DNA from: a virus
Virus record (IMG/VR): IMGVR_UViG_3300028829_001390
Span: 1 to 28,925 of that record
Direction: 5' to 3' (one strand)
Length of the DNA stretch: 28,925 bases
Part shown: in pieces, positions 5,681 through 28,925 of the stretch
How the letters are laid out: the number at the start of each line of letters is the position of its first letter
Numbering within the stretch: position 1 is the stretch's first letter
The notes under the pieces: generated by a model
Seen by the model: only the letters and a program-made list of their open reading frames with translations
Database searches by the model: none
What the model was told of the DNA's origin: nothing
Translations under genes and position numbers: made by a program

Positions 5681-5696
5681 TCCTTATTTTTGATGC

Positions 5697-8600
5697 ATGG
5701 ATGAGAAGCTGAAAGCGTTACTCTCTCAGGCAGAAGCCAATGGTGCTGATGAGACTGAGATGAAGAAGATTATCAGAGACTACTTGCTCGGTAATCAAAA
5801 AAAAAAAGAAGAAGCCTCACCGTATCCCTCTGTTTTGGGGGTGGGTTCATTGGGCTCAAGCTCGCCTACAGATTTGGGTGGAGAACAAAGCGATGCACTT
5901 TCGGATTGGCTTACCGCACCGAGAATAGGTGACAAGGTAGTCCCTGAATATCAGGCAGACATAATCAGCACCTACGCTGAGGACTTTGATAACGCATATC
6001 TTCAGGGTATTAGCGAAAGATTTGACGTAGATAGATATCGGAAAGTAGCGCAATCAAAACAAGAGTTCCTAGCCCCGTTCGACCAAGGTGATAACGCAGT
6101 AAGGAACACCCTGATTCGTGACTCTCTAGTTAAATACGATGCTTCTGCAACTGAGGACCAAAAGGATGCCGCTAAGAAAGAGATAATTGACCTTTTGTAC
6201 CAGTCTGGCGACCCCGACTTCGAGGTCAATAGATTTCTACTTGCTGGCACTGACGAGAACTTAGCCAACAACATGCTAGGAAGGGACGAAGTGGAGGGTG
6301 ATTATGCAATGACGCAAAAGTACACCCAAAGCGAGAGGGCTAACGAAGCGATGAAGAAGATAGGGGGGTTGGCGGCTATGACGAGCGGCCCCAAGTTTCG
6401 GGAGATGGTGCCGGAAGAGATTAGAAACAACCCAGAGCAGCTGTCCAATTTAGAGCGAGAGCTGATGGATGAGTTTGGTGTAGTCGTTGACCTAAATAGC
6501 GACACATATGTGGGGGGTTACGAGTTTTTAAAGGACAATTCAGCTGGATTAGGCACTACGATTGGCAAGGCTTGGAGGGAAAACTTAGCGGGTGCCAAGT
6601 ACATGCTGGGCGATATGTGGGCATCGATGGCCGGAGACGACAACATGCTTTCGAACTACCTTATTGAGTCAGCTGACGAAAGTAAAAGGCTTGCAGAGGA
6701 GGCCGCAAAAAGACTTCCATTCTCACTTCAAAGCTACTGGGATAGAACGGGCGACCTTATGGAAAAGATTGGCACGGAGCTGTCTGAAGGGGAGGTGGGT
6801 TTAGCTGACCAAGCTATCAGTCAGTGGGTTGATGAGTCACTAAGGTTGGGCGGGGAGTCTATGCCAATGATGGGCGGTGCTTTGGCAGCCGGCTGGTTAA
6901 CTAGAGGTAGGTCAATGCGCGGTATGGGGTATGCAAAAGCTGTAAAGGGCTTGAGGGGTGCAGAAAGGGTTGCAGCTCAAAGAAAGTTCATTGAAGCCAA
7001 CAGAAATTTACGCGCTTTAAGTAAGGGTAAAACGACTGTGTCCGCTCAAATGGCTAGACGGGCCCAATCCTCTGCCCATGTTGGAGCGTTGGGTGCCACA
7101 ACCTTCATGGGTATGGCTTCTACATACAATCAGGTAAGAGATGAGGAGTGGTTTCAAGAGATGGACGGGCTTGAAAAAGCTGGGTACACCAGTGTTATGG
7201 GTTTCTTGGAAGGGGCTCCGGCATTTGTTGGTGCTGCTATCGCTACAAATGTATTGAGGTCAGCCGGGAAAAAGGGTATAGAAAGTTTTGTCAAGGGCCT
7301 TATGAAAAACGTAGGTCTTGCAATGGTGGAGGAGGGGTTTACTGAAGGGGTTACAGCTGCTGGTCAGTATTACATCAACAGCAAAGTTAACCCTAATGTT
7401 GAGTTCAGCATGGAGGGATTATGGGATGCTACAAAAGAGGGTTGGTTGGCAGGTGTTGTACTTGGTGGTGGTATTGCCGGAACAACAGGAGCTTTATCGG
7501 TAGGTGTAAAGGCAACCTCTCTAGCTGCAACGGCTGTTAACTCGGTCCGAGATAGAGTTGTAATCACACAGCTCGCTGAGGACTATGATAACGCCCCCAC
7601 AAAGGAGCTCAGAAAGGAGATAGGCAAGAAGCTTAACGATGCTATTGCCAGAGCTTGGGATAGAAAGCTGGGCAGAGCAAAGTTTTATGAAGGTCTTGCA
7701 GAAACAAATCCAGAGGCATTCCAAAAGATTGAGGAGATACAAAAGAGAATCGCAAAGCTTGGTGTCGAACACAGCAGAGCTCAAGACGAAGACACACGAG
7801 CCAAGTTGAAGGCCGAGATGACAGCCCTTCTTGATGAAAGAGGCAGACTTGACTCTGAGTTTGGACTTGAGTATGATATCGATATCGAAAGTGAAACCAA
7901 TAGGGTTCTTAGGGGTATCGCTAGGATTGATAAGAGATACAGCGGATATGGCGAGCTATTCCAAGGTGATGCAGACTCTGTAACTGTAACAGCTGAAAAT
8001 TCTGACGCGGTTCTCGACGCTATCAACGGCACCACGTTTGAAAGTATCGACCAGTTTGATGACGGCTCATTCAAGAGTGGTTCTCAGATGCAAAAGGCTT
8101 TGAGAAATGTGGTGACAGCTGTTAAGGCACTGACCAAGACTGGTAAGGTGACAAAAGTCACAATACATAAAACGCTCGATTCTTTCCGAGCAGCCACAGG
8201 ACGTGACGCTCGCGGTGCTTACTTAGGAAAAGGTGAGATTCACGTCTACGCTCCAGCCATACTTCAAAACACTGGATTCCATGAGGCTTTCCATGACGTT
8301 GTTCTTGAAGCTCTTGGTCAGGAGGCAGTTACCGGAATGGCTGAGCAGTTCTTTGCATCTCTTACTGGTCCACTCAGGTCCAAGTACACGAACTTTTTAA
8401 GGCAGTATGGCAATGCTGGCGATATCCGCAAGGCTATCCGAGAAAATCCAGAGGTAGCAGAGGAGTTTTTAATTGAGCTGCTGGCCGACATGTCTGCGGG
8501 CAATGTAGATGTTGCTGTCAAGAAGGGGTTGCTTAATTCATTTAAGTCATTCCTTATTAAGGCGTACAACACAATCCCCGGTACACGTGATATTGACCTT

Positions 8601-21291: not shown

Positions 21292-21574
21292 TGCGCAGGG
21301 ATTTTACTTGTTGTTCATACCACTGCGCTTTCGCTATGTCCGTCGCGATGGGTTGACCCTGCTTCTTCCCCGCTCTCATTCGATACTTGAAGCTGTTCAT
21401 CTCGCAAAATGCGATGTACTTTTCCGCTCCCCAAATGTCCTTCATCATTTCGTAGACCTCCTTCCCCGCTGTTTTGTAGTGACTTGGTCTCACATCCCGG
21501 GATGCTGACTTGGAATCTTTCGAGGAATCTTTCGAGGATGTTAATGGTTTCTTTGATTGTACTAATTTGCTCAT
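21200..21574 (-). CDS. DUF3310 family protein (T7 gp1.7-like nucleotide metabolism family)
   Basis: The 124-residue product carries the DUF3310 signature: PSHYKTAGKEVYEMM (30-44), FCEMNSFKYRMRAGKK (56-71) and DIAKAQWYEQ (79-88). DUF3310 includes the C-terminal region of T7 gp1.7, a nucleoside monophosphate kinase-type activity, but the family at large is of unknown function. The first ~28 residues are Ser/Lys-rich and low in information. They coincide with the overlap with the upstream HTH gene (21315-21574), so a later start cannot be excluded. The 3' end overlaps the start of the primase-helicase gene by 92 bases in another frame. Confidence 0.75.
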   Translation of the reverse strand: MSKLVQSKKPLTSSKDSSKDSKSASRDVRPSHYKTAGKEVYEMMKDIWGAEKYIAFCEMNSFKYRMRAGKKQGQPIATDIAKAQWYEQQVKSLRNEKQEGNNISNNLSHTGGSHYDVRLCANED

Positions 21575-21899
21575 AGGTATTCTGTTTACGTTTACCTTCT
21601 GGTCTCACCTGTAAAGGTACCTTTTTATCTACTTTCTCGTCAACAATCTTAGAAGCAGTAACAAACCATCGTCGATAGTCGGGGCTCGACATGTAGTACA
21701 TCTCGTGGTTTCGGATGTAATGATACACGCTTGTCCTTTCCATCTTCCAAATGTTTGCTATGTCAGCTTGATGGAAGAACGGATTAACTCCGTTGGCAAA
21801 AGCCGCCCTCATCTCAACGTTATGGCGGTGCCTGTTACGCTTGGGTCTGTGACCAATCTGCAGGCAGTACTCTTCAAATGTCTCTTCAAAAATATTCAT
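21315..21899 (-). CDS. DnaA domain IV-like HTH protein with run-on C-terminus
   Basis: The 194-residue product has a basic opening (GHRPKRNRHRHNVEM) followed by a helix-turn-helix at about 41-67 (FFHQADIANIWKMERTSVYHYIRNHE). This resembles the C-terminal DnaA domain (Bac_DnaA_C type), in which conserved Thr/Ser-V-x-H-x-I residues read origin boxes. It may therefore mark an origin or regulate phage transcription. Residues ~108-130 form another helix. The last ~60 residues are Gly/Ser/Glu-rich and overlap the conserved part of the DUF3310 gene, so they probably have no fold of their own. The upstream 15 bases are AT-rich, without a Shine-Dalgarno site. The upstream non-coding region contains tRNA-Arg. 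Confidence 0.6.
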   Translation of the reverse strand: MNIFEETFEEYCLQIGHRPKRNRHRHNVEMRAAFANGVNPFFHQADIANIWKMERTSVYHYIRNHEMYYMSSPDYRRWFVTASKIVDEKVDKKVPLQVRPEGKRKQNTYEQISTIKETINILERFLERFQVSIPGCETKSLQNSGEGGLRNDEGHLGSGKVHRILRDEQLQVSNESGEEAGSTHRDGHSESAVV

Positions 21900-21987: not shown

Positions 21988-22192
21988 AATACAAGCTGTC
22001 TTTCCAGCAGTCAGTCTTTGATAACCATAACGGCTAATGTCCTTCACAATATGCCTCCGACTTAATCATACAGCCCCCTGTGATAAATCTAGTGACCCTA
22101 CCATACAGGCCACAAGGAGCTAGACTGGTTATCCCACCTCACCCGACAAGGTTGAGTTTAATTACGGCATAAGCTATGCATGGAAGGTGGTG
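21988..22192 (-). other. Non-coding stretch between tRNA-Arg and the HTH-gene leader
   Basis: I find no reading frame with coding character here, and no second tRNA. Pairing potential is high: GATAACCA (22020-22027) and TGGTTATC (22126-22133) are perfect complements 98 bases apart and could close a domain. Smaller hairpins exist inside (ACAG-CCCC-CTGT at 22070-22081) and outside (GCTG/CAGC near 21995-22008). Together with the flanking hairpins this suggests a structured RNA, possibly cotranscribed with the tRNA, or an origin region. It does not match an RNA class that I can name. Confidence 0.35.
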
Positions 22193-22266
22193 TACTCCCG
22201 ACAGGAATCGAACCTGTGACCGTCTGCTTAGAAGGCAGATGCTCTATCCAACTGAGCTACGAGAGC
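22193..22266 (-). tRNA. tRNA-Arg (anticodon UCU)
   Basis: The - strand folds as a full 74-base cloverleaf: acceptor GCTCTCG/CGGGAGT (first pair G-U, fifth U-G), D arm GCTC/GAGC with loop AGTTGGATA, anticodon arm TCTGC/GCAGA with loop CTTCTAA, five-base variable loop, T arm ACAGG/CCTGT with loop TTCGATT, discriminator A. The anticodon TCT (22230-22232) reads AGA and probably AGG, codons used heavily by the virion genes here. The bases after the discriminator are CACC, so CCA is not encoded and must be added by the host. All expected invariant positions of the D and T loops are present. Confidence 0.95.
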
Positions 22267-22895: not shown

Positions 22896-23659
22896 TAGAT
22901 GGTTGCTTTTATGTAGAACGTATCTGTTTGGATATTATTGTCCAAGTACGTGGTGATTCTGTCAACAGCCTTATCAAACTTTTCTTTACCTCGCTCAAGA
23001 GTTTCCTCGCTTGCCTCGTAGACTCCGATAGCATATGGGTAAGCTTTCTCTTGGGCTACCCAGTAAAACTTGTCGAGACCGAGTACACTGCAGTAGATGT
23101 AAGCTTGAATGTCGTAACCATAATCCTTTACGGCGTACCTAAATGAAGATAGACTGCGAGTAGTCTTGTGGTCACTGATGTACTCCGTGTTTAGGCAGTC
23201 CAAGAATCCTCGGACAGGCACACCATTAATCTCCTGATTGAACTCGTGTTGGTAGTCACCGATGAGGTACTGCTCCATCACACCGCTCACCTTGAGCCGT
23301 TCAATCATCTCCTGTGCTTTCTTGAAATCGTCCTGTCCGATGAGCTTTACTCCCTTCTCGTCGGCCTCCTCTTGAAAGTCCTTGACCCAAGCCTTGTACT
23401 TGTTGGTCATCCGTGGTGCACGACCACCAATCTCCTCACACTTGGTACTATCATTGAGCACCATGAACTGCTTGTCAAAGCCCTCCGGCGTAAAGAGAAG
23501 GCAGTCGTACATACTACCGAAGGTCAGGGCTTCGCTCTCCTTAAAGAGCTGTCCTCTCATGTACATCTCCCATAGCTTCATATCTTGAAGCGCATACTTG
23601 ATTGAGCTGTACGAAAGGTGTCCCTTGCCTACAGATTCAGCGAGCTTGATACTTAGCAT
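22895..23659 (-). CDS. RecE/exonuclease VIII-like PD-(D/E)XK nuclease
   Basis: The 254-residue protein has the arrangement of the RecE/ExoVIII-type phage exonucleases: LSYSSIKYAL near the start, LTFGSMYDCLLF (45-56) as the first helix of the fold, GFLDCL with Asp154, ISDHKTT with Asp163 and Lys165, and QAYIY (185-189). It should resect double-strand ends and load the annealing protein encoded by the gene just upstream. The two genes share TAATG, stop and start overlapping. The usual His of the first motif seems replaced by Asp52 or Tyr51. A Cas4/RecB-type nuclease is the alternative, but no Cys cluster for iron-sulphur binding is present. Confidence 0.75.
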   Translation of the reverse strand: MLSIKLAESVGKGHLSYSSIKYALQDMKLWEMYMRGQLFKESEALTFGSMYDCLLFTPEGFDKQFMVLNDSTKCEEIGGRAPRMTNKYKAWVKDFQEEADEKGVKLIGQDDFKKAQEMIERLKVSGVMEQYLIGDYQHEFNQEINGVPVRGFLDCLNTEYISDHKTTRSLSSFRYAVKDYGYDIQAYIYCSVLGLDKFYWVAQEKAYPYAIGVYEASEETLERGKEKFDKAVDRITTYLDNNIQTDTFYIKATI

Positions 23660-24707: not shown

Positions 24708-24793
24708 GTGACTAGGATTATGATGATTAAAATGATGATGACTCCAAGCCATCCTACATACACTAACGTGTGGTCTTTGTCTTTATTGTGCAC
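24704..24793 (-). CDS. Predicted 29-residue single-pass membrane peptide
   Basis: This short frame begins with GTG at 24791-24793, three bases after the stop of the upstream gene, and ends at TGA 24704-24706, overlapping the next ATG as ATGA. The peptide has a charged start (HNKDKDH) and then VYVGWLGVIIILIIIILVT, a clear membrane helix. Gap-free packing between neighbours supports a real gene, and the ATC/ATT/ATA mix for Ile argues against a simple repeat. A weak promoter-like element overlaps its start, so it may instead depend on read-through from upstream. Role unknown; small phage membrane peptides sometimes act on the host envelope. Confidence 0.5.
   Translation of the reverse strand: MHNKDKDHTLVYVGWLGVIIILIIIILVT
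24754..24791 (-). promoter_or_regulatory. Degenerate copy of the early intergenic element (copy 7)
   Basis: On the - strand this reads GCACAATAAA, 14 bases, then GTTAGTGTATGTAG. The left half and spacing match the six better copies; the right half departs from ACTATAG. It overlaps the start of the 29-residue peptide gene. It could be a decayed or weak promoter, or chance. Confidence 0.3.
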
Positions 24794-24796
24794 GGC

Positions 24797-25021
24797 TTAA
24801 AGTTTTTCTAAGTTCCAAATCATATGGATAACCTCACTAAAATCCGTAACAGATTTCCTCTCAGAGATGGTGTCCCCTGAATGGCTGAACACTACGATTT
24901 CGTTCATGCCATCGAGCGTAGTAACGGAGAGCGTGGTGTTGCCGATTTCGATTTTCAGTACACCAGACTTAGTTGCGGGGTTTGAACTTAGGTTAAAGGT
25001 GCGATTGTTTTCTTGACTCAT
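24797..25021 (-). CDS. Hypothetical protein, 74 residues
   Basis: The product is beta-rich: NRTFNLSSNPAT, GVLKIEIGNTTLSVTTLDG, EIVVFSHSGD, ending in a short helix (FSEVIHMIWNLEKL). No family recognised. It is the first gene after element copy 6, with a predicted leader of 22 bases (G at 25044 to ATG at 25021), and leads into the short genes at 24.2-24.8 kb. Confidence 0.6.
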   Translation of the reverse strand: MSQENNRTFNLSSNPATKSGVLKIEIGNTTLSVTTLDGMNEIVVFSHSGDTISERKSVTDFSEVIHMIWNLEKL

Positions 25022-25043
25022 GTCTATTGGGTTTAAATTATAA

Positions 25044-25081
25044 CTATCTGTCTAACGCCGGAGGAGTCTTAGTTATTGTGC
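25044..25081 (-). promoter_or_regulatory. Early promoter-like element, copy 6
   Basis: Reads GCACAATAAC, 15 bases, then GTTAGACAGATAG on the - strand. The left half is perfect; the right half keeps GTTA and ATAG. It overlaps the last codons and stop (HNN-TAA) of the 25069-25359 gene. The final G lies 22 bases before the next ATG. Confidence 0.55.
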
Positions 25082-25359
25082 TCCTCCCTAACAATATCTT
25101 TCACGTGGTCGCAGACTTCCCTCCAATCAATGATGCTTATCGCATCTTCAACGAAGTCTGATACGATTCCGTTTGGAATCTTGTTCAAGGTTTCATCAAT
25201 CATCATGACGAAGCTGTCCTTGCAGTATTCCGGTGAGATTTCCATGACTTTTGCTTCGTGGACTTGTTCGTTTTCCATCCACACATTGGCAATCTCATCG
25301 AGGTATCCCCACACATTGAGGAGCCATGTCTCTTTGTTCTTGAATGATTCGTAACTCAT
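25069..25359 (-). CDS. Small phage protein of the NKETWL-x-NLW type
   Basis: The 96-residue acidic protein opens with FKNKETWLLNVWGYLDE, close to the N-K-E-T-W-L-V-N-L-W motif of a family common in phages and plasmids (I believe DUF7249), whose role is unknown to me. The C-terminus has AISIIDWREVCDHVKDIV, also usual for that family. Its ATG overlaps the stop of the upstream gene (ATGA). The last three codons lie inside promoter-like element copy 6. Confidence 0.65.
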   Translation of the reverse strand: MSYESFKNKETWLLNVWGYLDEIANVWMENEQVHEAKVMEISPEYCKDSFVMMIDETLNKIPNGIVSDFVEDAISIIDWREVCDHVKDIVREEHNN

Positions 25360-25745
25360 GACTTTGAATTTATATGTTCTATGTAACTCACAACCCCACG
25401 ATACACTTTAGATATCATTGGTTCTGCCTTGTCTTCGGGATTGTTCCCGCTGAAAAAGATTCTATCTCCGATGTGTGGGTCTACCCATACAAATCTGTCA
25501 CCGATTGTAAATTCATTGTTATTTCCCCATTCGTCAGTCGTAAGATTTATCTTTTCTACCACGGGCATCAGCCAATCCCACGAGGTGTGGTATTTCATTT
25601 GCTCGGGAGTGTAGAAATGCTGTGCGTTTTCATTATCTGAATCAACGTCTAAGCCCCCCGTGATGTACACATCCCACTCCGTAGGATTATATTTAGGTGT
25701 GCCGACAGCACCCATAAATTCTGCTATTAGTTTGTTCTGATTCAT
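25356..25745 (-). CDS. Hypothetical protein of a type common in Bacteroidota phages
   Basis: The 129-residue protein starts NQNKLIAEFMGAV and contains KYHTSWDWLMPVVEKIN (51-67), a combination that I have repeatedly associated with phages and mobile DNA of Bacteroidota. The middle and C-terminal parts are beta-rich (FTIGDRFVWVDPHIGDRIFF) and rich in aromatic residues. No activity is known. It follows element copy 5 with a leader of 19 bases and is coupled to the next gene by an ATGA overlap. Confidence 0.65.
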   Translation of the reverse strand: MNQNKLIAEFMGAVGTPKYNPTEWDVYITGGLDVDSDNENAQHFYTPEQMKYHTSWDWLMPVVEKINLTTDEWGNNNEFTIGDRFVWVDPHIGDRIFFSGNNPEDKAEPMISKVYRGVVSYIEHINSKS

Positions 25746-25764
25746 AATATTCTAATTAATGGTT

Positions 25765-25802
25765 CTATAGTTAGAACGGAAGAAACTCGTGAGTTATTGT
25801 GC
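25765..25802 (-). promoter_or_regulatory. Early promoter-like element, copy 5
   Basis: Reads GCACAATAAC, 15 bases, then GTTCTAACTATAG on the - strand. It lies almost wholly inside the last codons and stop of the 25771-26013 gene, whose terminal TIT...FLPF is encoded by it. The G at 25765 lies 19 bases before the ATG at 25745. Confidence 0.65.
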
Positions 25803-26013
25803 CGTCCTCTGATAAACTTCCTTGGTCGATGAGGTGTCTAGCAGTGCGACCATAGCTGCCTTGTAGACTCCACACCAATCCGGTTTGGATTAGCACAGAG
25901 AACAGCTCCAGTACGCTATCAGCACTAGCTGAACCTCCCTCGTATTCCGTAATCATTCCAGTCAGCTGAGCTGTGTCTGGGATTAACGCTTTGGAATTGC
26001 AGTTGATATTCAT
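25771..26013 (-). CDS. Small phage hypothetical protein, 80 residues
   Basis: The central block LELFSVLIQTGLVWSLQGSYGRTARHLIDQG (roughly 36-66, given here as key residues L-F-x2-LI-x-TG-x2-W-x-LQG-x-YGR-x-A-x2-LI-x2-G) is a pattern found in many small phage proteins (I believe DUF7417), function unknown. The protein is helical with a short acidic C-terminal extension. The ATG overlaps the upstream stop by 4 bases. The 3' end doubles as promoter-like element copy 5. Confidence 0.65.
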   Translation of the reverse strand: MNINCNSKALIPDTAQLTGMITEYEGGSASADSVLELFSVLIQTGLVWSLQGSYGRTARHLIDQGSLSEDGTITHEFLPF

Positions 26014-26258
26014 GACTCTTCGCCTTCAATGGTTTGAAATTCTACTCCTTCGTACTCTTCTACGCAACCGTCTACTCTATCCTGCAAGTCTTTGAGGAAT
26101 GTCTTGAGGTCGTAGAGCATGTCCTTCACACTCGTGCTTCGCTTGCAATGCTGGATTTCGCGGTGCATCTCAATAGTCTGTGGGAGTAGCTCGGATACCT
26201 CCATGATGGCGGGAGCGCAGTCCCATCCGTCTTCTGTTGTTAAAATGATTTTAATCAT
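26010..26258 (-). CDS. Hypothetical protein, 82 residues
   Basis: I place the start at ATG 26256-26258 (MIKIILTTEDGWDCAP) since a beta strand opening is natural there and the more upstream codons run into promoter-like element copy 4. The rest is helical and acidic (SELLPQTIEMHREIQHCKRS, then DMLYDLKTFLKDLQDRVDG), likely a coiled coil. No family recognised. The leader from copy 4 would be 22 bases. Its stop overlaps the next start (ATGA). Confidence 0.55.
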   Translation of the reverse strand: MIKIILTTEDGWDCAPAIMEVSELLPQTIEMHREIQHCKRSTSVKDMLYDLKTFLKDLQDRVDGCVEEYEGVEFQTIEGEES

Positions 26259-26280
26259 GATGAATTGTTTTGTGGTGTTT

Positions 26281-26340
26281 CTATAGTTAGAACGCACCGA
26301 GTTCTGAAATATTGTCCGTCGTTTGTTAACGGATGTTAAC
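26281..26340 (-). promoter_or_regulatory. Early promoter-like element, copy 4, with upstream GTTAAC pair
   Basis: The core (26281-26317) reads GGACAATATT, 14 bases, then GTTCTAACTATAG, weakest in its left half. Upstream lie GTTAAC at 26335-26340 and again at 26325-26330, 10 bases apart; they encode the VN and the stop of the preceding gene (VNIR-TAA). Final G to ATG is 22 bases. Confidence 0.6.
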
Positions 26341-27495
26341 CTGTTGGTTAGGGTTTAAGACCACATCCCATTCTTCTCCGCGATGAGATATAATCGCCTT
26401 CGCGTGCATCAAATCCTTGAGCTTTTGTTCAGCTTCGTCAAGGGAAGCTACTAACTCAGAAACCCGACTCTGCTGAAAGCTTATAGCCGATGCGTTACGC
26501 CTAGCGTCCCTGAGATGATTGCTCAACGCTTCTGCATCGCTGTATGATAGACCATCACCAGAGGTGACCGTTTCTACCTCTATGTCACTGGCATGAGATT
26601 CAGCCTCGCTAGCCTCAACAACATCGTACACTTTCCAACCTCCCTTGACAACATGAAACTTGGATACATCGGGCTTTGATAAACCCTTGACCTCAAGGAG
26701 AATCTCAAACTCCCCTCTTGAGAAGCCACGGCTGGTGACAGCTGGTCCTTCGCTCTCACCTTTCTTGATAGCATTGAAGGCCTCTTCGATACATCGCTTC
26801 TCATTCATGGCTAACCGCTCTTCCAAGCACATTACAGCATCACGAAGCGTGTCGTACCATGTGAGAACTTTACCATCTATACTTAAAGCCCAGACGTTGT
26901 CATCATCCTTCTTGAGCCTGACAATTACTCCGTTTAGGACCACGCTGTCAAGTGTATCCATGAAGCTCTCCTTCACTTCGTAACTTCCGGCACTGATTCG
27001 ATTCAGGTATTCGCTACGTTTGAAGTTAGCCTTTGCCTCGTCCCTCATGTCTTCCTCTATATCTCGGAGTGAGCGGTCTACGTTGGCGAGATACCTACTG
27101 GTGTGCTTCAACTCATGATTCAATACGTAATCAATACGACTCAGTTCCGCCATGAACTTTGACTTGTACCATAGTTGACTAGGATTTTCCAACCTGTAAT
27201 CCCTTACAGCTAGCTTGAGAGGTCCGTCTTCATCCCAGCCATCTTTATCCAAAACAGGCAGAGAGTCCATTAGCTCTACAATGTTCGGAAACTCTGCAAT
27301 CAACGCTAGTTTTACAGCTACCCTGTACTCTCGGAAATCTACCCATAGCTTCGGGACTCCGAATTGGTCCTTGGTCTTCTCTACCTCTTGCCTTAATACT
27401 GATAGCACGATAGATTCTCGTGACTCGTTATCTCCCAAGAGCTTGCTCTCGATTTGCGCTAACGCTTCCTGTGGTGTGAATTTAGATTTACTCAT
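26326..27495 (-). CDS. Large hypothetical early protein with coiled-coil C-terminus
   Basis: The 389-residue product is the largest gene of the early cluster, and I do not recognise it. The N-terminal ~150 residues are helical and charged (PQEALAQIESKLLG, then LWVDFREYRVAVKLALIAEF). Around 165-235 there is a beta-rich part (VVLNGVIVRLKKDDDNVWALSIDG). A third section (~250-300) has GFSRGEFEILLEVKGLSKPD. The last ~60 residues form a coiled coil (SEAEQ/KLKDL-type heptads) and then a short strand. No membrane segments or catalytic motif. It has its own promoter-like element (copy 3), leader 29 bases. Its last codons contain the GTTAAC pair of copy 4. Confidence 0.65.
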   Translation of the reverse strand: MSKSKFTPQEALAQIESKLLGDNESRESIVLSVLRQEVEKTKDQFGVPKLWVDFREYRVAVKLALIAEFPNIVELMDSLPVLDKDGWDEDGPLKLAVRDYRLENPSQLWYKSKFMAELSRIDYVLNHELKHTSRYLANVDRSLRDIEEDMRDEAKANFKRSEYLNRISAGSYEVKESFMDTLDSVVLNGVIVRLKKDDDNVWALSIDGKVLTWYDTLRDAVMCLEERLAMNEKRCIEEAFNAIKKGESEGPAVTSRGFSRGEFEILLEVKGLSKPDVSKFHVVKGGWKVYDVVEASEAESHASDIEVETVTSGDGLSYSDAEALSNHLRDARRNASAISFQQSRVSELVASLDEAEQKLKDLMHAKAIISHRGEEWDVVLNPNQQVNIR

Positions 27496-27524
27496 GTCAA
27501 TTAAATTAAAAGATTAAACTGCTT

Positions 27525-27584
27525 CTGTAGTAATAACGCGGACAGCTGTCTGTTATTGTGCTCTGTTTGTTAATGGATGTTAAC
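27525..27584 (-). promoter_or_regulatory. Early promoter-like element, copy 3, with upstream GTTAAC pair
   Basis: The core (27525-27561) reads GCACAATAAC, 14 bases, then GTTATTACTACAG. The spacer contains the palindrome GACAGCTGTC. Upstream are GTTAAC (27579-27584) and ATTAAC ten bases on. Final G lies 29 bases before the ATG at 27495, and AT-rich sequence fills the leader. Confidence 0.65.
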
Positions 27585-27587
27585 GTA

Positions 27588-27752
27588 CTACGCTGACTCC
27601 CATTTGAATTCGCTGTGTTCTTTCTTATCTCGGAAGTGGTTGTATCCAGAGTTAAACTCATAGTCAGTTCGGCAAAGAATTAGCTTCGTCCATTCTCCTG
27701 ATTGGATTGACTTACCATAGAGGTAAAGTTCTTTTTTGTGGTATCTATTCAT
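27588..27752 (-). CDS. Short hypothetical protein, 54 residues
   Basis: The frame runs from ATG 27750-27752 to TAG 27588-27590. The product is basic and aromatic: NRYHKKELYLYGKSIQSGEW, then KLILCRTDYEFNSGYNHFR, and a charged end. It looks like a small beta-rich fold. The frame fills the gap between element copies 2 and 3, with an ATG 12 bases after the end of copy 2. That position, the balanced composition and the lack of another frame make it a credible gene. No family recognised. Confidence 0.6.
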   Translation of the reverse strand: MNRYHKKELYLYGKSIQSGEWTKLILCRTDYEFNSGYNHFRDKKEHSEFKWESA

Positions 27753-27764
27753 GTTTCAATGTTT

Positions 27765-27801
27765 ATATAGTAATAACGTAGGACCTTCCCAGTTATTGTG
27801 T
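27765..27801 (-). promoter_or_regulatory. Early promoter-like element, copy 2
   Basis: Reads ACACAATAAC, 14 bases, then GTTATTACTATAT on the - strand. The TAA inside CACAATAAC is the stop codon of the 27793-28164 gene. The spacer folds as GGGA-AGG-TCCT (one G-U pair). There is no upstream GTTAAC pair. The element ends 12 bases before the ATG at 27752. Confidence 0.65.
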
Positions 27802-28164
27802 ACGAGTCCGTAGAATCTCATACGATTTCTTGTAATCTCTGCTCAACAAAGTGCACTCCAGTCCCAGCATATCAAACGGGGGACGCAGACCATACATATC
27901 CATAAGAGTCATGGCTGTTGGCACATCACAGCTAAGAACTAGGTTTGGACCCACGCCTGTCGTGATGGTAAGGTGTATTTTGACCTTGGTTCTGAATCCA
28001 TCTTTCTTGCATTCAAACTCCATACTTGCGCTGACTCCTTCGACGTTGACTCCCGGCATATTCGTGTAGAGTAATCGAACACTATCCCGAATCTTCATCT
28101 GCATAGGGGAGGGAACGAATCCTATAAGGCTAAAGTGTTGCTGTTTTCCTGTTGCTTTCATCAT
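27793..28164 (-). CDS. Hypothetical early protein, 123 residues
   Basis: The product has a basic N-terminus (ATGKQQHFSLIGFVPSPMQMK) and a beta-rich core (SMEFECKKDGFRTKVKIHLTITTG, NLVLSCDVPTAMTLMDMYG) with an amphipathic C-terminal helix. Two ATG codons open the frame (28164 and 28161). Leader from element copy 1 is 24 bases. No family recognised; early-expressed small beta proteins of phages often bind host factors, but nothing here shows that. Confidence 0.6.
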   Translation of the reverse strand: MMKATGKQQHFSLIGFVPSPMQMKIRDSVRLLYTNMPGVNVEGVSASMEFECKKDGFRTKVKIHLTITTGVGPNLVLSCDVPTAMTLMDMYGLRPPFDMLGLECTLLSRDYKKSYEILRTRTQ

Positions 28165-28188
28165 GTCTTAATGTGTTTAATTGAACTT

Positions 28189-28248
28189 CTATAGTAATAA
28201 CGCAGGACTCTCCTTGTTATTGTGCGTAGTATGTGAACGAATGTTAAC
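28189..28248 (-). promoter_or_regulatory. Early promoter-like element, copy 1, with upstream GTTAAC pair
   Basis: The core (28189-28225) reads GCACAATAAC, 14 bases, then GTTATTACTATAG and continues AAG, so its end equals the SP6 promoter end ACTATAGAAG. The spacer folds as AGGA-GAG-TCCT. Upstream lie GTTAAC (28243-28248) and GTTCAC ten bases on. Final G lies 24 bases before the next ATG. Confidence 0.7.
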
Positions 28249-28254
28249 GCTCTC

Positions 28255-28320
28255 CTAGAGGCAATCGACATAGTCAATCCACTCCAATCCGTATAGCTCC
28301 TGTAGCTCCTCTATGCTCAT
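28255..28320 (-). CDS. 21-residue micro-ORF coupled to the ArdC-type gene
   Basis: ATG 28318-28320 overlaps the stop of the ArdC-type gene as ATGA, and the frame ends at TAG 28255-28257, directly before the GTTAAC pair of element copy 1. The peptide (SIEELQELYGLEWID and a short acidic end) looks like one amphipathic acidic helix. The ATGA coupling is the sole support beyond the frame itself; it may be a peptide gene or a translation-control leader. Confidence 0.4.
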   Translation of the reverse strand: MSIEELQELYGLEWIDYVDCL

Positions 28321-28925
28321 GATTCCTCGTTTTCGTCCAGTATGAAGTCTACAGCTTTCATCGCTTTGGTCGCGGCTGACAGGGCCATTTTTGGCTTATC
28401 CTTTAGCTCTTTAACCCATCCATTGATGTATGCTTGACTATTCTGCTCATCATCCTTTGGGCTGATTCCAGTGAGACCTACAAGGAACTGACTCCCAATC
28501 TCAGCAACCAACTCCTCCTTGGAGTACGCATCACTTCCGAATGCCGCAACCTTATCCAGTCGCTTCAGGATTGTTTCGTGACCGGTGCTGTGAACCAGTT
28601 CATGGAACAGGGTCTTGTAGTAATCGTCGTTGGTGACGAACGTCTCTGGATTCGGCATCTGCACATGGTGACGTGACGGCACGTAGAACGCACGCTCTCC
28701 TCCATGAGACAGGCTTGGACGATTGTCCTTCGGGTACTGCTCTTTGTAAACTCTCTCAGCTTTGTCAATCGGTGTGAATTCGCCCACACCTTCTACTGGA
28801 GCAACAGGCTTACGTCTCGGCTCAATGTCATCGCACTGGGCGATGTTGAACACGTTCCAAGAACGAGGAGTGAAAATCTTGTCGTACTTCATGCCGTTCG
28901 GGATATCCTGATACTTGCGGTAGAA
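28317..28925 (-). CDS. ArdC-type zincin metallopeptidase, antirestriction family (5' truncated by window)
   Basis: The frame is open to the window edge, so the N-terminus, usually an ssDNA-binding ArdC_N domain, lies outside. The visible part begins FYRKYQDIPNGMKYDK and follows the ArdC layout: WNVFNIAQCD, a pre-catalytic stretch with RAFYVPSRHHVQMP, then FHELVHSTGH with the HExxH zinc site, and SKEELVAEIGSQFL, whose second Glu block supplies the third ligand (as in MPTase-PolyVal zincins). Numbered from the internal Met at 28892, HELVH is 97-101 and EELVAE 126-131. ArdC-type proteins protect incoming plasmid or phage DNA from restriction, and early phage expression would fit that. The 3' end couples to the 21-codon frame. 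Confidence 0.8.
   Translation of the reverse strand, partial: FYRKYQDIPNGMKYDKIFTPRSWNVFNIAQCDDIEPRRKPVAPVEGVGEFTPIDKAERVYKEQYPKDNRPSLSHGGERAFYVPSRHHVQMPNPETFVTNDDYYKTLFHELVHSTGHETILKRLDKVAAFGSDAYSKEELVAEIGSQFLVGLTGISPKDDEQNSQAYINGWVKELKDKPKMALSAATKAMKAVDFILDENEES

Follow-up and report, generated by a model that had tools for sequence, protein, structure and literature searches.

In the middle promoters of phage T4 (the MotA/AsiA system), the box of a phage factor lies about 30-36 bp before the start, a further box stands downstream, and the promoter is read by the RNA polymerase (RNAP) of the host. Early promoters of phage N4 carry a GC-rich hairpin heptamer with its centre at -11 (PMC4496689). 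In Flavobacterium johnsoniae, transcription directed by sigma-ABfr starts 4-5 nt after the element TAHHTTTG, and the mRNAs are mostly leadered (PMC6847099). Here we describe a two-box element repeated before small genes of a virus known from IMG/VR record IMGVR_UViG_3300028829_001390. The whole record, a genome fragment of 28,925 bp, was analysed and is called the window. With moderate confidence, and from sequence comparison, we favour the reading that the element is a phage-specific promoter class for an early or middle gene block, read by host RNAP together with a phage-encoded factor.

A sequence-only reading of the window had listed six minus-strand copies and a weak seventh with common box sequences. 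The pattern CACAATAAC-N(10-20)-GTTATTAC matches three times in the window, each time on the minus strand, against 0 expected from dinucleotide shuffles. The common boxes hold for these three copies; the copy at 26281 carries GACAATATT in place of CACAATAAC, and those at 25765 and 26281 both carry GTTCTAACTATAG. As a fair test of the window copies, a weight matrix was trained on 64 instances from other genomes, with the window left out. Five minus-strand copies (28225, 27801, 27561, 26317 and 25802) score 37-45 bits; the best score on the plus strand is -7.4, and the highest among 120 shuffled strands is 12.1. The repeated element is thus confirmed in five strong copies, the sixth (25044) being degenerate and the seventh (24754) a doubtful relic, similar to a sequence that precedes the orthologous gene in one relative (G011). 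A further weak candidate, at 22943, scores 9.9 bits and does not rise above noise. The reported length of 37-38 bp and the distance of 12-29 nt from the final base to a start codon agree with our measurements, in the degenerate copy too (Table 1). That final base is T instead of G in copy 27801. The spacer had been given as 14-15; its near-fixed length stands, and it becomes 13-14 when the right box is taken to begin at CGTT. The TAA stop of the preceding gene falls in the left box of copy 27765..27801, and copy 25765..25802 overlaps the 3' end of gene 25771-26013. An alternative GTG start of the 82-aa gene (26297, from the list of open reading frames, ORFs) would fall inside copy 26281.

The motif recurs in related genomes and is not scattered at random across them. 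A 22-base pattern matched ten other IMG/VR contigs, with about 0.01 chance matches by rough estimate, and broader scans, which allowed two mismatches in the 14-base right box, gave 67 distinct instances in about 30 closely related contigs. Their consensus runs G (91%), CACAATA, A (85%) or T (14%), C (67%), A (14%) or G (11%), N13 or N14, CGTT, A/C, T, n, ACTATAG, AAAC, an A-rich leader and ATG. The boxes are near-invariant, with CGTT in all instances, and the spacer sequence is variable; its length is 13 in 34 instances and 14 in 33, so that the boxes start 23 or 24 nt apart. Even copies that extend into the end of the preceding coding region keep their boxes. ACTATAG had been equated with the -6 to +1 core of T7/SP6 promoters, and this is borne out at every position (A94 C88 T98 A86 T79 A100 G92 percent), with the +1 position assumed. 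Equally sound was the observation that the element matches neither the sigma consensus of Bacteroidota nor TTGACA/TATAAT; of the latter two hexamers, which would stand 16-18 bp apart, the base frequencies show neither.

Strand and position were compared in seven genomes, namely the window and six complete or near-complete genomes of relatives (G006, G009, G011, G013, G014 and G015). In each of them, every copy that scores more than 20 bits is on one and the same strand, and almost all strong copies belong to a single block of small genes, which precedes the genes for the Erf-like protein, the exonuclease and the primase-helicase. The relatives have about 6-10 strong copies per genome, 7-44 nt ahead of an ATG. 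Copies score 20-49 bits against a maximum of 10.3 across 3.9 Mb of shuffled strands; since the training set of this matrix came from relatives of these genomes, the scores measure consistency and not independent discovery. A variant copy also stands before a lone early-strand gene amid late-strand genes (G006 28345, G014 39611, G015 28562, and a weaker one at G013 58340), which counts for promoter function. In distant relatives, scanning found no copy of the motif and Gibbs sampling no clear equivalent. A blastn search of named phages gave no match, a weak negative given a query of 42 bases whose spacer varies, and literature searches gave no relevant description of a promoter of this kind.

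The viruses that carry the element form one group of marine, uncultured Bacteroidota viruses. By TerL, their nearest named relatives are the uncultured podovirus ctfjg026 (MW202828; 47% identity) and Flavobacterium phages of the genus Elemovirus (42%); the closest relative in culture is the Elemovirus system of Flavobacterium sp. BAL314. A crAss-like muzzle protein (PF25731/PF25729) is encoded in the window genus, which shares giant structural proteins of 3.3-3.9 kaa with ctfjg026 and Elemovirus. Because of these relatives and structural proteins, the hosts are probably Flavobacteriia. The gene order of the relatives is consistent with circular permutation, so that the contigs together cover an entire genome of about 58-61 kb, in which no further gene of the size of an RNAP or a DNA polymerase appears. 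Compared with Pfam and PHROGs, almost all small genes of the block are without a known family.

The main argument for the element as the promoter of this block comes from the distribution of host-type elements. In the seven genomes, TAHHTTTG followed by ATG at exactly 4 nt occurs 23 times on the late strand versus once on the early strand. Because of this exact distance, the late mRNAs of these phages are predicted to be leaderless, unlike the mostly leadered mRNAs of F. johnsoniae. Within 80 nt upstream of the ORFs of the motif-bearing block, TAHHTTTG was found in 0 of 107 cases (chance alone, about 0.2). Among distant relatives lacking the motif, a host-type element is often seen at the gene that directly precedes the exonuclease, and its leader is 20-32 nt long. 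The window genus therefore appears to run two separate programmes, one with host-type elements at late genes and one with the new element in the block.

On these grounds the element is very probably a promoter, and, if so, host core RNAP with a phage factor is its likely reader. We infer promoter function, the start site, the timing and the reader from sequence. From each copy a separate transcript would begin near the G of TATAG and have an A-rich leader of 12-44 nt before the ATG, and the genes driven would be the small ones of the block, the anti-restriction gene ardC and mostly genes of no known family. GCACAATA would be the upstream box at about -36, CGTTA a -10-like box, and ACTATAG-AAAC the region of melting and start. 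Host core RNAP would do the reading, with its specificity supplied by the phage-encoded factor. The two equally frequent spacer lengths suggest two flexibly linked modules, such as sigma-like regions 4 and 2 or an activator and a polymerase, and not one rigid footprint. The earlier description of the family as promoter-like and phage-specific is supported by its placement just before start codons; the word early follows from gene content.

The sequence-only reading had left the reader as either a single-subunit phage polymerase or host polymerase with a phage factor. The former is disfavoured. A T7-like RNAP (PF00940) was not found in the six relatives, Elemovirus or ctfjg026, with a T7 control at 1e-109; no RNAP motif is conserved in the giant virion protein, and the two spacer lengths also argue against such an enzyme. 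Host polymerase with a phage factor is the better option. Sigma-70 region 2 was not found (bacterial controls were positive), nor was sigma region 4 in close relatives; a phage sigma factor, if there is one, may be diverged. One candidate specificity factor, by conservation and fold, is a 141-145-aa protein (MSRHHP...KLNKRY...), whose gene in six relatives is the only early-strand one in a run of late genes. It has homologues of 36-40% identity in 8 of 9 distant relatives, and is present in all relatives checked except one incomplete contig; with its AlphaFold model, Foldseek matches MarR-family regulators (E 1e-3 to 1e-2). Small proteins like a free-standing DnaA domain IV, recognised by eye from an HTTVxHY-like signature (window 21318-21899, minus strand; L150 15397-15909), are conserved across the whole group and are candidate factors on that ground.

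Several points weigh against the reading favoured here. No sigma domain, region 4 or region 2, was found in the phage proteins; the MarR-like protein also occurs in distant relatives without the motif, and its model is of modest confidence (pLDDT 62). Sigma promoters seldom show conservation as strong as that of ACTATAGAAAC around the presumed start, which recalls single-subunit polymerases instead, and the hairpins found in a subset of copies hint at an extra role in RNA or single-stranded DNA. It is rather unlikely that the reader is an undescribed kind of machinery or specificity factor, for example the MarR-fold protein in place of sigma, or a polymerase that sequence does not reveal.

A phage-encoded or virion-borne RNAP, for example a highly diverged one in the giant virion protein of the window (3,315 aa), would explain why ACTATAG equals the T7/SP6 core. 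It would also follow N4-like logic, in which an injected RNAP serves the early genes and host RNAP reads the late ones; the host-type elements at late genes and their absence from the block would suit this. Moreover, the giant protein sits at the position of the giant structural protein of Elemovirus. We consider this improbable. Besides the negative PF00940 search, the giant protein has no Pfam or PHROG match, and a comparison of seven giant homologues showed the HD and D.D.D motifs and the T7-type motif B to be either missing or poorly kept. D.D.D, the catalytic motif of crAss-like virion RNAPs, is matched by DLDVD in the window protein but is not conserved, the relatives having DLNFD and KLNFA. 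PDB profile searches with three conserved stretches gave no RNAP among the matches. Motif regular expressions, homologue alignment and PDB profiles are thus all negative; the protein may still be very remotely related to a polymerase. The GC-rich heptamer of N4 at -11 is not seen in the element, and the variable spacer speaks against a rigid polymerase footprint.

The element could also act in RNA, as an intercistronic processing or protein-binding site that sets mRNA 5' ends, as ribozymes or tRNAs may do in distant relatives, where hammerhead-like ribozymes, a tRNA and long inverted repeats stand at gene boundaries. In its favour are the 15 distinct spacers between CACAATAAC and CGTTATTA: 14 have an inner stem of at least 3 bp, against 5.4 expected and with 0 of 2,000 shuffles as high, although the spacers are mutually related and the test overstates their independence. 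The stems are of several unrelated sequences (AGAA/TTCT, AGGA/TCCT, GAC/GTC, GCA/TGC, GGG/CCC and TGGGA/TCCTA; CCAGA/TCTGG in a related GTTATAG copy). However, only 7 of the other 37 distinct spacers have a stem, versus 9.8 expected, and most copies fold no better than spacer shuffles; the hairpin was therefore rejected as the shared signal. Hairpin copies never lie within the upstream coding region, and because many non-coding copies are without one, the covarying hairpin is an optional extra in a subset of copies. At the gathering threshold, Rfam found in the window genus a tRNA alone, in the block, apart from one chance-level overlap, and an RNA site would leave the block without a visible promoter. 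We therefore regard this reading as unlikely. If transcription starts at the G, the hairpin would lie upstream of the start, at the 3' end of transcripts reading through from copies further up; it is possibly a 3'-end stabiliser, a weak terminator, or the neutral outcome of template-switch correction of a quasi-palindrome.

Two further readings keep the DNA role with other proteins. A phage repressor or activator could bind the dyad AATAAC-N14/15-GTTATT where it overlies host promoters of the usual kind that are poorly conserved; the best copies do have these inverted arms, and the conserved MarR-fold protein would suit the part. This is very improbable, since the dyad is lost in GTTCTA, GTTACT and GTTAAC copies and no TAHHTTTG element was found in the block. 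The distance from CACAATA to CGTT and the CGT(T) -10-like box resemble promoters of extracytoplasmic function (ECF) sigma factors, and the failure to find a phage sigma would suit a host alternative sigma factor borrowed by the phage. Against this, the strict full-element pattern has no exact match in 84,980 bacterial and archaeal species genomes (GTDB), a pattern too strict for looser host promoters; we give this reading the lowest probability of all.

Table 1. Copies of the element and other features of the window.
Feature	Position	Strand	Remarks
Strong copy GCACAATAAC-AAGGAGAGTCCTG-CGTTATTACTATAG	28189..28225	-	40.6 bits; hairpin type; 24 nt to ATG of 27793-28164
Strong copy ACACAATAAC-TGGGAAGGTCCTA-CGTTATTACTATAT	27765..27801	-	37.4 bits; hairpin type; 12 nt to ATG at 27752
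Strong copy GCACAATAAC-AGACAGCTGTCCG-CGTTATTACTACAG	27525..27561	-	45.0 bits; hairpin type; 29 nt to ATG at 27495
Strong copy GGACAATATT-TCAGAACTCGGTG-CGTTCTAACTATAG	26281..26317	-	38.2 bits; without hairpin; 22 nt to ATG at 26258
Strong copy GCACAATAAC-TCACGAGTTTCTTC-CGTTCTAACTATAG	25765..25802	-	43.3 bits; without hairpin; 19 nt to ATG at 25745
Degenerate copy GCACAATAAC-N14-CGTTAGACAGATAG	25044..25081	-	8.9 bits, in the shuffle range; exact left box; 22 nt to ATG at 25021
Doubtful relic, GCACAATAAA-N13-CGTTA kept	24754..24791	-	right box broken; ATG at 24752 without leader; missed by the weight matrix
123-aa gene after copy 28189	27793..28164	-	without family match
54-aa ORF (MNRYHKKELY...) after copy 27765	27588..27752	-	
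389-aa gene after copy 27525	26326..27495	-	without confident family
82-aa gene (MIKIILTTEDG...) after copy 26281	26010..26258	-	
129-aa gene after copy 25765	25356..25745	-	
74-aa gene after degenerate copy 25044	24797..25021	-	
ArdC-type anti-restriction protein, C-terminal part (MPTase-PolyVal)	28317..28892	-	copy at its own start in relatives; in the window, beyond the contig end
Host-type -7 element TATTTTTG	5685..5699	+	followed after 4 nt by the ATG of the giant late gene

Some further features of RNA were seen in this group. The window has a tRNA-Arg (anticodon TCT) at 22192-22266 on the minus strand, within the early-strand gene run, and G009, G011, G013 and G014 have tRNAs at a comparable place. 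The copies before ardC in G011 (20721), G015 (23904), G009 (18452) and G006 (34314) sit 40-44 nt before the ATG, and a further hairpin, such as GGGGAGGCAATCCAGTCTCCCC, follows them in what would be the 5' leader. Among distant relatives there are five complete hammerhead-ribozyme-like sequences with a 6-bp stem I (L077 13547-13596, L161 4539-4588, L170 3685-3738, L173 2052-2105 and 3182-3231), of which at least four lie a short way before an ATG; all are below the Rfam gathering score, and none was found in the window genus. Near-perfect inverted repeats with arms of about 14-20 bp lie just upstream of genes in L170 (3380-3420), L173 (2805-2925) and L154 (2020-2080), followed in L170 and L173 by the common leader TCAAACTTCAA.

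Phage promoter systems of Bacteroidota are hardly described in the literature searched. Were undescribed machinery, the rather unlikely case named above, to read the element, these Bacteroidota phages could express early genes to which the primary sigma factor of the host has no access. A defined non-host promoter class beside host-type leaderless late promoters would give a handle on a factor that redirects Bacteroidota RNAP, and the element could yield an orthogonal promoter for Bacteroidota.

Among known systems, T7/SP6-class promoters share ACTATAG (-6 to +1) before a short leader, and many copies on one strand of a genome. They are recognised as a rigid, continuous sequence from -17 to +6, whereas the element has an extra box at about -36, a spacer of 13/14 and CGTT at -13 to -10, with no other continuous sequence upstream of CGTT; its genomes have no detected RNAP gene of that class. 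The promoters of the N4 virion RNAP are also a non-host class in one early block, in a phage with a giant virion protein and host-type late elements, and they share hairpins with some copies of the element. However, every N4 promoter has its hairpin near -11, whereas the hairpins of the element occur in a subset of copies and elsewhere, none of them a GC-rich one at -11, and the giant protein here shows no RNAP signature. Primary sigma promoters of Bacteroidota (TTTG / TAnnTTTG) are found at late genes of the same genomes and are absent from the block. T4 middle promoters differ from the element in sequence, and its downstream box is not the host -7 element, but the layout of an upstream box followed by a downstream box is common to both.

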